Origin: a bacterium
Lineage (GTDB): Bacteria > SM23-81 > DAOVCL01
Length of the DNA stretch: 21,298 bases
Direction of reading: 5' to 3'
NCBI GenBank assembly: GCA_029932675.1
Contig: JAOZPP010000057.1
Span: forward strand, 1 to 21,298
In this document: positions 10,389 to 16,341 of the stretch, in pieces
Numbering within the stretch: position 1 is the first letter of the stretch
Layout of the letters: every line of letters starts with the position of its first letter
Notes under the pieces: model-generated
What the model was told of the DNA's origin: nothing
The model's input: the letters and a program-made list of their open reading frames with translations, nothing else
Databases searched by the model: none
Translations under genes and position numbers: made by a program

Positions 10389-13076
10389 ATGAGGTTTTTT
10401 CTTCTCTTCCTCTTCCTTCCTTTGCTCGAGGGTAATCCCTCCCCCCCGCTGGATGGGTGTATAGATCCCCTTCCCTGGATTAGTCAAGGAGTAGTTGGGC
10501 CAATGGGGCATTCTGCTTCCGGATGGGAGGGAAAGGAGTTCCAGCTCAACGAAGAGGACTATCCTGGGGGATTTCCCCAGTGGTATCCGGCCATAGCCTC
10601 CCTTTCCGATGGCCGCTTTGTGGCCGTCTGGATGGATGAGCGCAATGGTGATTATGATATATATGCTCAGATGTTGGGGGGGGATGGTGAACCTTGGGGT
10701 GAAAGTGTGCGGGTCAATGATGATTGGGGAGGGGCAAATCAGTGGACCCCAGGGATTGCCTCCGATGGGGAAGGGAGATGGGCTGTGGTTTGGAGCGATT
10801 ACCGGGAGGGGAAGCCAGAGATATACGCCCAGATATTCGCTGGAGGGAGAAGGGGAAGGAATTTTAAGCTTAGTCAGGGTAAGGGGGCAGAAAGGTATTA
10901 TCCAGATGTAGCCGGATGGAAGGGGATGTTCCTTGCCGTTTGGGAGGACCGCCGGGATGGTGAGCCGGACATCTATGGGCAGTTCTTTGATCTCGATTCC
11001 CTTTGGGGGGACAACTTCAAACTCAATGATCCCACCCCGCGGGCTTCGCAACGTTATCCCCAGGTGGCCTCCTCTGGGGATGGGGTCTTTTTTGTGGTTT
11101 GGCGGGACTACCGGAAGGGACCAGCTCATATCTTTGGCCAATTCATCAAGGAAAGTGGCAAAACTTGCGGAGATAATTTCTGGGTGGATGATGATAGCTT
11201 AGGGTATGCGGCTTGGTATCCCTCAGTAGCGGGGAGCGAAGGGTTTGTGGTGGCCTGGGAGGAATGGATGGGTGAGGATTACGACGTCTTTGCTCGCAGG
11301 TATGATTCCCAAGGGAGGGCCCTTGGCAAAGTGATAAGGGTAAGCCAAGACCCCACCCAGAGCGAACAGTCTCTACCCTCAATAGGTGCAGATTCAAGGG
11401 GCTTTCTTGTTTCCTGGGCCGATAAGAGGGAAGGCAACTATGATATCTACGCGCAGAGGTTTGACCGAGAGGGCAACCCTCAGGGGGGGAATTTTCGGGT
11501 AGATGATGATCAGTCTGAAGCCGATCAGCTTTGGCCCACGACGGCTTGTGGGAGGGATGGGTTTTGTATCTGTTGGCGAGACCGCAGGGAGGGGTTGGCC
11601 CAAGTATTTGCACAAGGTTATGACTCCATTGGGGGGCCAGAGGGCTGTAACTTTAAGCCCGGGGGGGATATTGGAGGCGCCCATCAACTTTCCCCCTCCT
11701 TGGCCTCTGACCACCAAGGGTTGACCCTCTCGGCCTGGGAGGATTATAGGTGGGGAAAGGCTAAGCTCTGTGGACAGTGGTTTACCAGGGATGGTCAGCT
11801 TTTAGGGGGGAATTTCCTCATCCAGGAGAGGCCCTGGCCTTGTACCCAACTCTCTCCTCAGGTGGCCACCAATGAAAAGGGGAGATTCTCCCTAAGCTGG
11901 ATGGAGTGGGAGGAGGGGGACTGGGATGTCTGGCTGAAGGCTTGGCCAGGGAGTAGCATTAGGGTTAATGATCAAAGCCTCGGCTTTCAGGGTTTTCCTT
12001 CCCTAAGCTATGGAAATAATGGACTCCTGTTGGTCTGTTGGGAGGATTGGAGGGAGGGGTATGGGATCTTTTGTCAAGTTTATGATTCTACCCTTTCACC
12101 TCTCGGTTCAAACTTCCGGATAGACGAGGGGACAAGGGATTCTTATCGGGATCATCCTTGGGTAGATGGAGCGAAAGGCTTTGCTACTGTGTGGAGGGAA
12201 CGCTTATATGACGGTTTTCAATGGGATTCTCACATCTATATTCAGATTTTGGATAGCTTGGCCCACCCAATTAGGGGAAACTTCCGAGTTGGCCAAGAGC
12301 AGTCCTACCAGTTGTCCCCCCAGGTGGCTTATGGTCGAACCAACGAGTTTTGTGTAGTCTGGATATCCAAGGAGGGCGAAGAGAAGGATATCTATGCTCA
12401 GTGGTTTGATAATTATGGTTTAGCTCTTACGGATCCGGTTAGGGTTAACGACGATGTTTTTGGGACAACCCAGGTTGACCCAACCGTGGTTGGTCATCAA
12501 GGGAGGTATATCATTGGCTGGACCGACTACAGGGAGGGGGATGGGGATATCTATTTCCAAAAGTTTAAGGCACCAGGGGTTAGGGAAGGGGGAAATTTTC
12601 GATTGAACTTAGATCCAGGAGGAAAGGGTCAAGGCAAACCCGCTTTTTTCGTTGCCGATACCCTGCTTATGGCCTGCTGGGAGGATAGTCGGGTCCCCGG
12701 AGATGGATGGGACATCTGGGCGAAGGTGTGTAGTTGGAAGGGGACAGGGGTAGATGATGAACCTTCTTTAAGCCCTGGGGTCAGTTCATTTACCCTCTCT
12801 CAGAATTATCCCAATCCGTTCAACTTGGCTACAGCTATCAGCTATCGGCTGTCAGCGGTCAGCACCCAGGGATCAGCAGTCAGTTTAAAGATTTATAACA
12901 TCCTGGGGAAGGAAGTGAGGACGTTAGTAGCCAGTAGCCAGAAACCAGGGGAGTATCAGGTGATTTGGGATGGAAAGGACGATAGGGGCAGGCCGGTGGC
13001 TAGTGGAGTATACGTTTGTAAGTTAGAGGTTAAGGGTAAAGTGAGAAAGACGAGGAAATTGGTGGTTTTGAGGTGA
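10389..13076 (+). CDS. Secreted 14-repeat beta-propeller-like protein, T9SS/FlgD C-terminus
   Basis: This 895-residue extracellular protein has a signal peptide of about 16 residues (MRFFLLFLFLPLLEGN). About 14 repeats of roughly 52 residues (residues 60-785) each carry a core of the form F..VW.D.R.G..DIYAQ, as in VWMDERNGDYDIYAQ, WSDYREGKPEIYAQ, WEDRRDGEPDIYGQ and WADKREGNYDIYAQ, followed by G.NF.VNDD. Asp-rich loops suggest ion binding. Fourteen blades would make two seven-bladed propellers, which is inference. Residues 800-895 are a FlgD-like Ig/T9SS sorting domain (LSQNYPNPFN, then SLKIYNILGKEVRTLV and GVYVCKLE), pointing to secretion and surface attachment. It sits directly behind the MutL-type ATPase without a gap. 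A ligand is not predictable; adhesion or substrate binding is plausible. Heptamer repeats interrupt the sorting domain. Confidence 0.88.
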   Translation: MRFFLLFLFLPLLEGNPSPPLDGCIDPLPWISQGVVGPMGHSASGWEGKEFQLNEEDYPGGFPQWYPAIASLSDGRFVAVWMDERNGDYDIYAQMLGGDGEPWGESVRVNDDWGGANQWTPGIASDGEGRWAVVWSDYREGKPEIYAQIFAGGRRGRNFKLSQGKGAERYYPDVAGWKGMFLAVWEDRRDGEPDIYGQFFDLDSLWGDNFKLNDPTPRASQRYPQVASSGDGVFFVVWRDYRKGPAHIFGQFIKESGKTCGDNFWVDDDSLGYAAWYPSVAGSEGFVVAWEEWMGEDYDVFARRYDSQGRALGKVIRVSQDPTQSEQSLPSIGADSRGFLVSWADKREGNYDIYAQRFDREGNPQGGNFRVDDDQSEADQLWPTTACGRDGFCICWRDRREGLAQVFAQGYDSIGGPEGCNFKPGGDIGGAHQLSPSLASDHQGLTLSAWEDYRWGKAKLCGQWFTRDGQLLGGNFLIQERPWPCTQLSPQVATNEKGRFSLSWMEWEEGDWDVWLKAWPGSSIRVNDQSLGFQGFPSLSYGNNGLLLVCWEDWREGYGIFCQVYDSTLSPLGSNFRIDEGTRDSYRDHPWVDGAKGFATVWRERLYDGFQWDSHIYIQILDSLAHPIRGNFRVGQEQSYQLSPQVAYGRTNEFCVVWISKEGEEKDIYAQWFDNYGLALTDPVRVNDDVFGTTQVDPTVVGHQGRYIIGWTDYREGDGDIYFQKFKAPGVREGGNFRLNLDPGGKGQGKPAFFVADTLLMACWEDSRVPGDGWDIWAKVCSWKGTGVDDEPSLSPGVSSFTLSQNYPNPFNLATAISYRLSAVSTQGSAVSLKIYNILGKEVRTLVASSQKPGEYQVIWDGKDDRGRPVASGVYVCKLEVKGKVRKTRKLVVLR
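10600..12740 (+). repeat. About 14 degenerate tandem coding repeats of roughly 156 bases
   Basis: Fourteen W(x)D/E-(x)-R-(x)-G...D-I-Y cores can be counted from residue 77 to residue 764, a mean spacing of about 52 residues. The repeats differ at most third positions, so they are an old protein repeat and not a recent DNA duplication. The weakest copies are the eighth (WEDYRWGKAKLCGQ), ninth (WMEWEEGDWDVW) and eleventh (WRERLYDGFQWDSHIY). Confidence 0.8.
12829..12884 (+). repeat. Heptanucleotide repeat inside the first sorting domain
   Basis: Eight consecutive 7-base units with the consensus NNTCAGC (for example TATCAGC, TGTCAGC, GGTCAGC, GATCAGC) run in exact register from 12829 to 12884. 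They encode the stretch TAISYRLSAVSTQGSAVS between the NYPNPFN motif and SLKIYNIL. The same kind of repeat recurs at 15950-15984. Confidence 0.8.
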
Positions 13077-13097
13077 GAGGTGTTGGGTGGGAGGCGA

Positions 13098-13133
13098 GAA
13101 CTGAATACCGATAAGCTGAAAAGCGAATAATGG
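13098..13133 (-). repeat. Degenerate heptamer-like repeat in the intergenic gap
   Basis: Read on the minus strand, the gap between the two secreted-protein genes contains TTCAGCT, TATCGGT and ATTCAGT in series, resembling the TCAGC heptamers in the flanking genes but in the opposite orientation. It is short and degenerate, so it could be chance. Confidence 0.4.
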
Positions 13134-13134
13134 A

Positions 13135-13141
13135 AAGGAGG
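13135..13141 (+). promoter_or_regulatory. Strong Shine-Dalgarno for the M1 peptidase
   Basis: AAGGAGG (13135-13141) lies 5 bases before the ATG at 13147. It indicates independent initiation after the 70-base gap. No promoter is seen in that gap. Confidence 0.65.
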
Positions 13142-13146
13142 GGGAG

Positions 13147-16100
13147 ATGAGGAAATCCATCCTCTCTGTTCTTTTTTTAGCCCTGCTTGCGGGCAGGTGT
13201 TTGGGGGCTGAGGGGGGGGAAGGGAGTGGGTGGCCGTTAGCGGATGGCAAGGAGATTTACCTAAAGGGGAGGTCTCCCCTTCCAGTGGTAGCCGAGTCCA
13301 CCCATACCTATGATGTTCTGCATTACCGGCTTGACCTCTATTTTCCGATGACCTCGGACTACTTAGAGGGAACGGCAATTATTGCTTGTCGCAGCCAGGT
13401 GGAGGGGCTCTCCTCGCTGGATCTGGACTGTGTTTCTTTTTCTGTGGATACAGTGAAGATAAATGGGGTAATCGCTCCCCTTTGGCAACTCTCCGATGAG
13501 AAGTTGCAGATTGAGGATATGGGTATGACCTTCTCCCTGGGTGACTCCTTTGATGTGGAAGTCACCTACCATGGGCACCCAGCAAGGGGGTATTATTTCT
13601 TTTATGCCAGTGGTGGGGTGCCTGCCACAGGCTTTACCACTTGTGAGCCCTCCGACTCGCGATATTGGTTCCCTTGTTTCGACAAGCCCTGGGATAAAGC
13701 GGACTACGGCAGCCAGTTAAATGCCACTGTCCCCTTGGGCTATCAGGTTGCCTCCAACGGCCTTCTTATGGAGGTGGACACAACATCCACCAAGAAGGGT
13801 GACCTGGTTACCTACCATTGGGATGAAACCCACAGCATTGCTACCTACCTGATCTCGGTGGCCATCTCGAAGTATGCTATTATCAATGATAACTTCTACT
13901 CGCCCTACGGGGATACCATCTTGGTGCAACACTTCGTCTATCACCCAGACTCTATCAAGGCGTTGCAAAACTTTGCTAAGGTTCCCGATATGATGGGATT
14001 CTATGCCAGCCGCTTTGGAGACTATCCTTTCTCTAAGTATGGGATGGCCACAGTAGCTGGCTTCGGTGGGGGTATGGAGCACCAGACGATGACCACCATT
14101 GGCCGGTTTGCTGCGACGAGTGGATGGGAGGAAGGGGTGGCCCATGAGCTTGCCCATCAATGGTGGGGGGATATGATTACCTGTGCAGACTGGGCAAGCA
14201 TCTGGCTCAACGAGGGATTTGCCACCTATTCTGAGGCCTTGTGGGTAGAAGATGAATACGGTTCGGCAGCAATGCATCAGGAGATGAATGGAAGGGCGAA
14301 CACCTATTTTAGGGTGGCTGGTAATGACTTTCCCATTTATGATCCCCCTCCCGGGCGTCTCTTTGATCTAGCCCGCATCTACTATAAGGGAGCATGGGTA
14401 TTGCATATGTTGCGGCACGTGGTAGGGGATGACAATTTCTGGGGGATACTTCAGGCATATTACGATGCCTACAAGTATGGGATAGCGACTATCCCCCAGT
14501 TCCAGGAGGTCTGTGAGGGGGTGTATGGTGGGGATCTGGACTGGTTCTTCCAGGAGTGGATCTACCAGGCTGGTTATCCCCAATATGAATTTCTCTGGAC
14601 CTCCCAAGATGTTGATCCTGGCTACTTAGTTGATGTCTATATCCGACAGGTGCAGGATGATTTCCCCCCCTTTAAAATGCCGATGGATTTGGATATCATC
14701 CTGCCCGATACCCAGATAACTGAAAGGGTTATGGTGGACGATTGGGGGGAGCATTTTGAGTTTATGGTGGACTCTCTGCCCACGGGGGTTGTACTGGACA
14801 AAGATAACTGGGTCTTAAAGGAGGTAATCCCGATAACCACCCCTCTTCTTTCTACTCTTGGCTATACCGTAGAAGATGGGGTGGGGAACGATAATGGCCG
14901 CCCTGACCCAGGGGAGGTTGTGGAGTTAAGGGTGGAGGTTTACAATCGGGGGATACCTGCCCTTGATCTTACTGGCACTATCTGGACCAGATGTCCCTAC
15001 ATCAACATTACCGATGCCCAAGCAGACTTTGACTCGGTAGGGGTGGAGGACTCGGTGGAGAACCTAACCGATCCCTTTGGCTTTGCGGTGGATTCTGATG
15101 CCCCCAGCCATACTGCCCTTATCTTCTTGGAGCTAAATGCGGATGGTGGTTATCACAAGACTGACAGCCTCTGGGTTGAGGTTGGCCCTTCCCCAGTCCT
15201 CTTGGTTGACGATGATGGGGGGGCTAATTATCAGGGCTATTATGAGGCCAGCCTTTCCAGACTTGTCCCCTATGATCTCTGGGAGACGGCCGGGCAGGGT
15301 TCACCTGGGGAGACATTAAGCCATTACCAAGCGGTTATTTGGCTTACGGGAAATGACTCCTTGAGCAGTTTGACTTCCGGGGAGCAGGCCGATGTTGCTG
15401 CTTATCTGGAGGGGGGAGGGAACCTCTTCCTCAGTGGGGAGGATATAGGTTATGATCTGGTAGAGGAGGGGGATGCTTCGGACACAGCGTTTTATCATCA
15501 GGTTCTCCATTCCGCCTATGGAGGCCAGGTTGAGGAGAGGGATATGCTCTTTGGGGTAAGTGGTGATCCTATTACCGATGGGTTAATGCTCTATCTCAAT
15601 GGCTATGGGGGGGCAGACAACCAGAGGCATCCAGATGCGGTCTCTCCGCTTTCCGGGGCGGTGACCATCTTTAGGTACTATCCTTCCGGGTCTCCTGAGT
15701 CCGCGGCTATCAGGTATGCGGGTTCCGGACATCTGGTCTATTTTGGTTTTGGGTTTGAGGCCCTTACTGGGGATACCCCTGGGCAGAGCTTGGAGGCGAG
15801 AACAGAGCTGTTAAACAGCATCCTGAGTTGGTTTGGGGTAACTACTGGGGTCAAAGGGGAAGGGGAGAACGAGTCCATCCCCTCGGGGTACACCCTGCTG
15901 CAGAACTACCCCAATCCGTTTAACTCCGCTACCGTTATCCGCTACTACCTCCCAGCGGTCAGTGGACAGCAACCAGTTGTCAGCCTAAAGATCTACAACA
16001 TCCTTGGTCAGGAGGTGAGAACCTTGGTGGATGGGGAGCAGGCCCCTGGTCGCTACTCTGTGGTCTGGGACGGTCGGGATGGAAGGGGTAGGAGGGTTGC

Positions 16101-16173
16101 CTCAGGGGTGTATCTCTGCCGAATGAAGGCCCCAGGTTTTGAGCAGGTTAGGAGGTTGATCCTCATAAAATAG
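13147..16173 (+). CDS. Secreted M1-family metallopeptidase with T9SS/FlgD C-terminus
   Basis: This 1008-residue extracellular aminopeptidase has a signal peptide of about 20 residues (ILSVLFLALLAGRCLG), then the M1 N-terminal beta domain. The zinc site HELAHQWWGD has H333, E334 and H337, with the third ligand E356 in LNEGFAT, exactly 18 residues after H337. The substrate-binding GAMEN loop reads GGMEH (308-312), so the Asn is replaced by His. A second part (about 565-680) looks like an Ig/CARDB-type stalk. Residues 685-890 begin PVLLVDDDGGANYQGYYEA and resemble a glutamine-amidotransferase-like fold common in such secreted proteins. A C-terminal sorting domain starts at NYPNPFN (residue 920). 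It should digest peptides outside the cell. Neighbour and domain sharing suggest it works with the upstream repeat protein, and a terminator closes the unit. Confidence 0.9.
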   Translation: MRKSILSVLFLALLAGRCLGAEGGEGSGWPLADGKEIYLKGRSPLPVVAESTHTYDVLHYRLDLYFPMTSDYLEGTAIIACRSQVEGLSSLDLDCVSFSVDTVKINGVIAPLWQLSDEKLQIEDMGMTFSLGDSFDVEVTYHGHPARGYYFFYASGGVPATGFTTCEPSDSRYWFPCFDKPWDKADYGSQLNATVPLGYQVASNGLLMEVDTTSTKKGDLVTYHWDETHSIATYLISVAISKYAIINDNFYSPYGDTILVQHFVYHPDSIKALQNFAKVPDMMGFYASRFGDYPFSKYGMATVAGFGGGMEHQTMTTIGRFAATSGWEEGVAHELAHQWWGDMITCADWASIWLNEGFATYSEALWVEDEYGSAAMHQEMNGRANTYFRVAGNDFPIYDPPPGRLFDLARIYYKGAWVLHMLRHVVGDDNFWGILQAYYDAYKYGIATIPQFQEVCEGVYGGDLDWFFQEWIYQAGYPQYEFLWTSQDVDPGYLVDVYIRQVQDDFPPFKMPMDLDIILPDTQITERVMVDDWGEHFEFMVDSLPTGVVLDKDNWVLKEVIPITTPLLSTLGYTVEDGVGNDNGRPDPGEVVELRVEVYNRGIPALDLTGTIWTRCPYINITDAQADFDSVGVEDSVENLTDPFGFAVDSDAPSHTALIFLELNADGGYHKTDSLWVEVGPSPVLLVDDDGGANYQGYYEASLSRLVPYDLWETAGQGSPGETLSHYQAVIWLTGNDSLSSLTSGEQADVAAYLEGGGNLFLSGEDIGYDLVEEGDASDTAFYHQVLHSAYGGQVEERDMLFGVSGDPITDGLMLYLNGYGGADNQRHPDAVSPLSGAVTIFRYYPSGSPESAAIRYAGSGHLVYFGFGFEALTGDTPGQSLEARTELLNSILSWFGVTTGVKGEGENESIPSGYTLLQNYPNPFNSATVIRYYLPAVSGQQPVVSLKIYNILGQEVRTLVDGEQAPGRYSVVWDGRDGRGRRVASGVYLCRMKAPGFEQVRRLILIK
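15950..15984 (+). repeat. Heptanucleotide repeat inside the second sorting domain
   Basis: Five in-register 7-base units (TCCCAGC, GGTCAGT, GGACAGC, AACCAGT, TGTCAGC) encode LPAVSGQQPVVS immediately before SLKIYNILGQE. This is the same loop and the same repeat class as at 12829-12884. Confidence 0.72.
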
Positions 16174-16213
16174 GCCATCCATTTCAGGGGGAATAGGTGT
16201 CCAATAGAGGGAG

Positions 16214-16243
16214 AACCGCCAGAGGGGTTACTCTGGCGGTTTT
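16214..16243 (+). terminator. Intrinsic terminator after the M1 peptidase
   Basis: An 11-base-pair perfect stem (AACCGCCAGAG / CTCTGGCGGTT) with a GGGTTA loop ends in a short T run, 40 bases after the stop codon. The T run is only about four bases, so strength is uncertain, but the stem is GC-rich. Confidence 0.8.
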
Positions 16244-16341
16244 CATATGAAGTTCCCTCCTATCCCTATTGCTTCACAAGGGGTGTTTAAGGGCCTTCTT
16301 CTAATGCTACTTCAGCGTCAAAGAGGGTTGGTTTTTTCACC
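16244..16341. other. Intergenic stretch with no recognised gene
   Basis: No ORF, RNA or repeat of note was seen here. AAGAGGGTT occurs at 16321-16329 and again at 16352-16360, flanking the -35 box of the next promoter; it might be an operator repeat, but nine bases may be chance. Confidence 0.4.

Follow-up and report, generated by a model that had tools for sequence, protein, structure and literature searches.

How do two neighbouring protein domains come to be built, at the same short position, from seven-base repeats? The question is raised by a 21,298-nucleotide stretch of bacterial DNA (contig JAOZPP010000057.1, assembly GCA_029932675.1, termed here as the window), where two consecutive genes encode proteins with a C-terminal T9SS sorting domain (Table 1). 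An earlier note on this DNA had placed two heptanucleotide arrays, in register, exactly between the NYPNPFN motif and SLKIYNIL of these domains, and we confirm both the coordinates and the register. It also suggested that the loop is a landing or expansion site for a dispersed minisatellite. One part of this idea stands, since dispersed 7-base repeats recur at this position both genome-wide and in a congener; however, several repeat families are involved, the arrays reach beyond the loop, a second hairpin is used, and copying or replacement takes part too. We therefore consider it probable, with moderate confidence, that the hairpin between strands 2 and 3 is a module that has been rewritten repeatedly, with dispersed heptamers captured there and then copied among paralogs by short-tract recombination.

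Two heptamer arrays in register

The eight units of the first array read CTACAGC, TATCAGC, TATCGGC, TGTCAGC, GGTCAGC, ACCCAGG, GATCAGC and AGTCAGT, and the five units of the second TCCCAGC, GGTCAGT, GGACAGC, AACCAGT and TGTCAGC. The unit NNTCAGC, which had been assigned to both, is exact in only four of the eight and one of the five (in each array three units have one mismatch and one has two), yet the arrays themselves are real and far above chance. In 60 Markov-shuffled windows the best 8-unit score had a mean of 22 and a maximum of 25, against 35/40 observed, and the best 5-unit score outside the 8-unit array was 20/25, against a shuffled mean of 16 and a maximum of 18. Lag-7 matches also exceed those in synonymous re-codings of each array's own peptide (31 vs. 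15.9, p<0.0002, in the first; 24 vs. 17.5, p=0.02, in the second), thus the period of both arrays lies at the DNA level, beyond what the amino acids demand.

The degenerate copy reported between the two genes is present but weak. Additional heptamers, absent from the earlier note, lie in other hairpins of sorting domain 1 (AGTAGCC and AAGTTAG/AGGTTAA), the latter belonging to the same family as those in the last hairpin of about 30 paralogs. Downstream (3′) of the second gene, at 16210-16250 of the window, a strong inverted repeat is followed by a T run (CCGCCAGAGGGG..CTCTGGCGG TTTTC), which we read as an ordinary intrinsic terminator.

Table 1. Coding sequences, sorting domains and heptamer arrays, in window coordinates.
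Feature	Position	Strand	Basis
CDS 1, 895 aa, secreted protein with C-terminal T9SS sorting domain	10389..13076	+	ORF list; TIGR04183 30.7 bits (cut-off 23)
T9SS type A sorting domain 1	12807..13067	+	TIGR04183 35.1 bits in genome profile search
Heptamer array, TCAGC family, 8 units; codes for strand 2, the loop and the first part of strand 3	12829..12884	+	Sequence, shuffle and re-coding tests, AlphaFold strands
AGTAGCC AGTAGCC AGAAACC, another hairpin turn (ASSQKP)	12926..12946	+	Tandem-repeat finder 12926-12941, 100% match; sequence
Degenerate AGGTTAn (AAGTTAG AGGTTAA GGGTAAA GTGAGAA), last hairpin (LEVKGKVRK)	13020..13047	+	Sequence; lag-7 14/21 at 13016
Weak degenerate TCAG-type array between genes, one 8-base spacing	13098..13131 (approx.)	-	13/20 informative bases over the best four units
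CDS 2, 1008 aa, M1-family metallopeptidase with C-terminal T9SS sorting domain	13147..16173	+	Peptidase_M1 1e-28; TIGR04183 26.9 bits
T9SS type A sorting domain 2	15907..16161	+	TIGR04183 32.2 bits in genome profile search
Heptamer array, TCAGC family, 5 units; codon register as in first array	15950..15984	+	Shuffle and re-coding tests

The domain and the hairpin that the arrays encode

Both window proteins exceed the TIGR04183 cut-off. Pfam Por_Secre_tail scores 21.1 in protein 1, below its cut-off of 27, and is not among the Pfam matches listed for protein 2, where FlgD_ig is listed. A T9SS translocon is encoded in the same genome (SprA family TIGR04189, cut-off 200; the matches in a single frame add up to 758.7 bits). 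This 3.03 Mb genome, a draft of 116 contigs, holds 144 TIGR04183 matches, a very large cargo set.

An AlphaFold model of the domain construct has seven strands (pLDDT 84), and Foldseek found no PDB match to it at E<=0.001, with FlgD among the best matches and RgpB absent from the best 50 listed. The model places strands at residues 25-31 (TAISYRL) and 39-46 (SAVSLKIY), and the first array codes for approximately residues 24-42, so that by this prediction the array is strand 2, the turn and the start of strand 3, beyond the loop alone. The pattern T-x-I-x-Y-x-L is kept in 200 of 201 domains, though four unrelated heptamers encode it.

Distribution of heptamers in the genome

Across the whole 3.03 Mb genome, the pattern (YCAGYnn)4 with one mismatch allowed gave 54 matches against 4 for the reversed pattern, a frequency above that of shuffled sequence, as expected of the dispersed repeat that the earlier note had in mind. 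The matches merge into 27 TCAG-type arrays. T9SS sorting domains, at 1.13% of the genome, hold 21 of them (binomial p 4e-36), every one on the sense strand, and 19 of the 21 have the same phase modulo 7. When sorting-domain-bearing stretches (444 kb of the 3.03 Mb) were scanned for periods of 3-30, the sorting domains held 27 strong period-7 windows vs. 0-1 at every other period. The mean lag-7 z over synonymous re-coding is 3.1-4.4 in loops of families A, B and D and of family C in this genome (families defined below), vs. -0.2 to 0.1 in short loops.

Several families at one hairpin, and a second hairpin

At least four heptamer families occupy the same hairpin position in the loop alignment. 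In this genome, family A (TCAGCnn) is carried by 27 domains after reclassification, family B (ATTAAGA/ATTATCA) by 12 and family C (CGTTAYT) by 15, the last sometimes followed by a spacer and an inverted copy, CGAGCTA; family D (GTCCGCn) is carried by 3 domains here and 11 in the congener. The intergenic DNA of the 444 kb examined also contains families A, B and C, as well as CTGAAAG, which is A on the other strand. In the congener, loops of a further family, H (GATAGAGATAGAG), occupy the same hairpin in eight domains and are species-specific, with two units there and one here (G000 C53 near 7822); this GATAGA type was rejected as a heptamer, being a 6-base duplication.

Loops of families B and C have long non-repeat tails in common (CCCCTGTCCGCACCACC; foldback segments). 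The family C strand can fold back (folding z about -2.4 to -2.5), which may hint at template switching. In the long family C loops (e.g. G000 C108 near 5820 and C28 near 6244), the array and its inverted copy surround a spacer as in a single-strand DNA foldback.

The last hairpin of the domain carries heptamers of its own, AGGTTAn/GGTGATA, its length going from 12 to 16 residues, and the mean lag-7 z is 2.3 in 40 long loops vs. 0.23 in 156 short ones. Some CTGAAAG arrays are translated in this hairpin, and in all three cases seen the unit that would give an in-frame TGA is CGA or CAA. Palindromic segments, CCGAAGGA..TCCTTCGG and CCCGAAGGGA..CCCTTCGGG (peptide RRTPDSFG; 31-aa loop), have landed in the same hairpins (G000 C94:32242-32436 and C116:2494-2703; G001, the congener, C175 near 2686 and C107 near 727), therefore these sites take other repeat elements too.

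Repeat loops are mostly 18-20 aa and loops without repeats 16 aa. That loop length follows repeat number holds loosely (Spearman 0.67), but lengths of 16, 18, 19, 20, 22, 26 and 29 occur, whole-unit steps are rare, and 16 aa are kept in some heptamer loops of other phyla. Simple whole-heptamer growth was rejected as the main account, the observed lengths not being in steps of 7; one step from 19 to 26 in the congener (G001 C118 vs. C20) fits it.

Loops decoupled from their flanks

Among paralogs of this genome, same-family loops are 90% (B) and 80% (D) identical vs. 57% between families, but this likeness does not extend to the flanks, where same-family pairs match no better than pairs of different families, except for about 30 bp downstream in B. 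Loops of the TCAGC family are 68% identical, too diverged to separate copying from independent expansion. A tree built from the flanks only, using 74 columns and leaving most forks unresolved, has 43 changes of family against a possible minimum of 5, and the supported branches alone force 7 changes for A, 4 for C, 5 for D and 3 for B. The state of short vs. repeat loop changes 15 times on this tree against a shuffled mean of 66, repeat loops being concentrated in part of the tree.

Five orthologous domains of the congener, where upstream protein identity is 61-75% and downstream DNA is 63-91% identical, have a different loop type: A/H, A/H, C/D, A/D and short/D (this genome/congener). In the C98/C117 pair, DNA identity is 70% on the left, 44% in the loop and 85 and 91% on the right. 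The loop is thus not constant among relatives, and the different families in orthologous domains imply replacement or copying besides landing or expansion. Ten repeat-free ortholog pairs with domain identity of at least 60% keep 16-residue loops, and each of the two genomes has its own mix of families (p 2e-8). The conserved downstream DNA of the five key pairs led us to reject swapping of whole domains as the sole account there; two other pairs do fit it (G000 C116 genes, domain identity 36%). Neither a donor/recipient pair with matching breakpoints nor recombination or insertion machinery was identified in this genome and the one congener.

Other genomes and phyla

TCAG arrays were found in all four genomes of this phylum examined, with 34 pattern matches vs. 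2 for the control in the congener; the few loops read in G002 and G003 are not heptameric. In other phyla, period 7 at the loop position reaches threshold in 4 of 80-odd sorting domains, and other periods in 0 or 1. These four are from Calditrichaceae (L138, p 0.0005), Kryptoniota (L156), Ignavibacteriae (L180) and Zixibacteria (L132), the last three with uncorrected p of 0.009-0.04, and two more genomes with heptamer loops were found by pattern. At an unchanged 16 aa, the loop is heptamer-coded in L138 (synonymous p 0.0005) and in genome G004 (p 0.04). Because only L138 and L274 are strong singly, recurrent heptamer use across phyla is likely rather than proven. Many TCAG-type heptamers were also seen in the distant genomes G019, G021, G034 (33) and G042 (22; control 0 for both counts), and in G019 and G021 the reversed pattern is frequent as well, indicating that the repeats there differ.

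Captured and copied, or grown in place?

We base the capture-and-copying reading on the arrays with their period, phase and strand, on the intergenic relatives, on the decoupling of loops from flanks and on the differing orthologous loops. Dispersed heptanucleotide repeats of several families would be captured at the strand 2-3 hairpin, the first capture probably by insertion or slippage. Since 3 does not divide 7, all forward frames of a 7-base array encode one and the same 7-residue peptide. In one phase per family this gives the T-x-I-x-Y-x-L alternation needed by strand 2, and then a turn, and the minus strand of the TCAGC family would introduce TGA stops. The captured segments would then be copied among the approximately 150 paralogous domains as short tracts (the loop, in one family with about 30 bp more), most likely by ectopic gene conversion. 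The hairpin may be tolerant of such change since only the alternating pattern would matter for folding and export. The shared phase could also be inherited from an ancestral array, and the interrupted, frame-neutral nature of the arrays argues against a phase-variable contingency repeat.

The main rival is expansion in place from a seed, as the T-x-I-x-Y-x-L codons already repeat bases at lag 7 (C, A, T, T) and slippage could regrow arrays without any import. In repeat-free domains the motif-fixed positions do agree at lag 7 in 68-100% of cases, and the 16-aa heptamer loops of L138 and G004 put heptamers at the same place in other phyla. However, repeat-free loops have no lag-7 excess over synonymous expectation, slippage does not make the long tails common to B and C loops, and the same families occur between genes. 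We consider seeded slippage rather unlikely as the whole account, though it may act alongside capture and copying.

Plain inheritance, where an ancestral domain with a heptamer loop was duplicated and drifted, would suit the clustering of repeat loops in part of the flank tree, but it is improbable given the scatter of families on that tree and the decoupled loop identity, and it is contradicted by different families at orthologous sites with conserved flanks. Still less credible is selection on the peptide, in which the machinery for export or anchoring would read the loop as an address and the period in the DNA would follow from the peptides that are favoured. In its favour, T-x-I-x-Y-x-L is nearly always retained and the last hairpin of the domain is a recognition region in RgpB (PMC4804311), but the periodicity exceeds synonymous expectation and orthologous cargo proteins of the two congeners carry unrelated loop peptides. 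Chance or an assembly artefact, for which one may point to the 116-contig draft, is contradicted by the shuffle tests, the reversed-pattern controls and the finding of such arrays in another genome of the genus (34 vs. 2), and is extremely improbable.

Beyond the capture and copying that we favour for this hairpin, we put forward only tentatively that T9SS edge hairpins are cassette-exchange sites and frame-independent repeats a raw material for new beta-strands, with this lineage continually re-making its hairpins from heptamers, and independently so in several T9SS phyla. About 150 paralogs with two or three sites each offer a countable natural experiment on how dispersed heptamers spread, a question open since their first description, and bear on how simple repeats can turn into working secondary structure of proteins. 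In these domains, motifs such as AVSxQ or YELRIKN derive from repeats and probably do not represent functional signatures.

Comparison with known systems

STRR heptamers of heterocystous cyanobacteria are dispersed and are found even inside the RNase P RNA gene. Compared by description, both they and the repeats studied here are short dispersed tandem heptamers that a conserved molecule tolerates in one of its variable parts; there the site is an RNA gene, whereas here it is protein beta-hairpins, with selection for codon register and exchange among many paralogs.

The C-terminal domain of RgpB is a seven-strand Ig-like sandwich with an alternating hydrophobic pattern, where a crossing loop links strand 2 to strand 3 across the sandwich and the strand 6-7 recognition hairpin is protease-sensitive (PMC4804311). 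The strand 2-3 crossing corresponds to our main heptamer site and the strand 6-7 hairpin to the second. In the passages of this source considered here the RgpB loops are described as short, without mention of repeat-derived loops, unlike the heptamer-coded loops here.

Also close are the TAACTGA direct repeats of Beggiatoaceae, Cyanobacteria and Bacteroidetes (MacGregor 2015, PMC4679880), which likewise consist of tandem units of exactly 7 bases. Their reverse complement TCAGTTA has the TCAG core in common with our arrays and encodes LSVISYQ, for which antiparallel beta structure was predicted. They too are interspersed with other heptamers, and how they are transferred is not known; the few copies inside genes lie mostly near protein ends, in proteins without similarity outside the repeat (PMC4679880). 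The unit TAACTGA/TCAGTTA is not tandem in the NNTCAGC-like window arrays, and TCAGTTA-like units occur in a few paralogs. TAACTGA repeats are mostly intergenic and upstream of start codons (PMC4679880), whereas most TCAG arrays here (21 of 27) belong to a single type of domain, where they keep to one position and, in 19 cases, one phase, and several families replace each other. We found no report in the open-access literature that ties heptanucleotide repeats to T9SS sorting domains; the kind of repeat is thus already known, and its recurrent, register-locked use of T9SS hairpins appears to be new.
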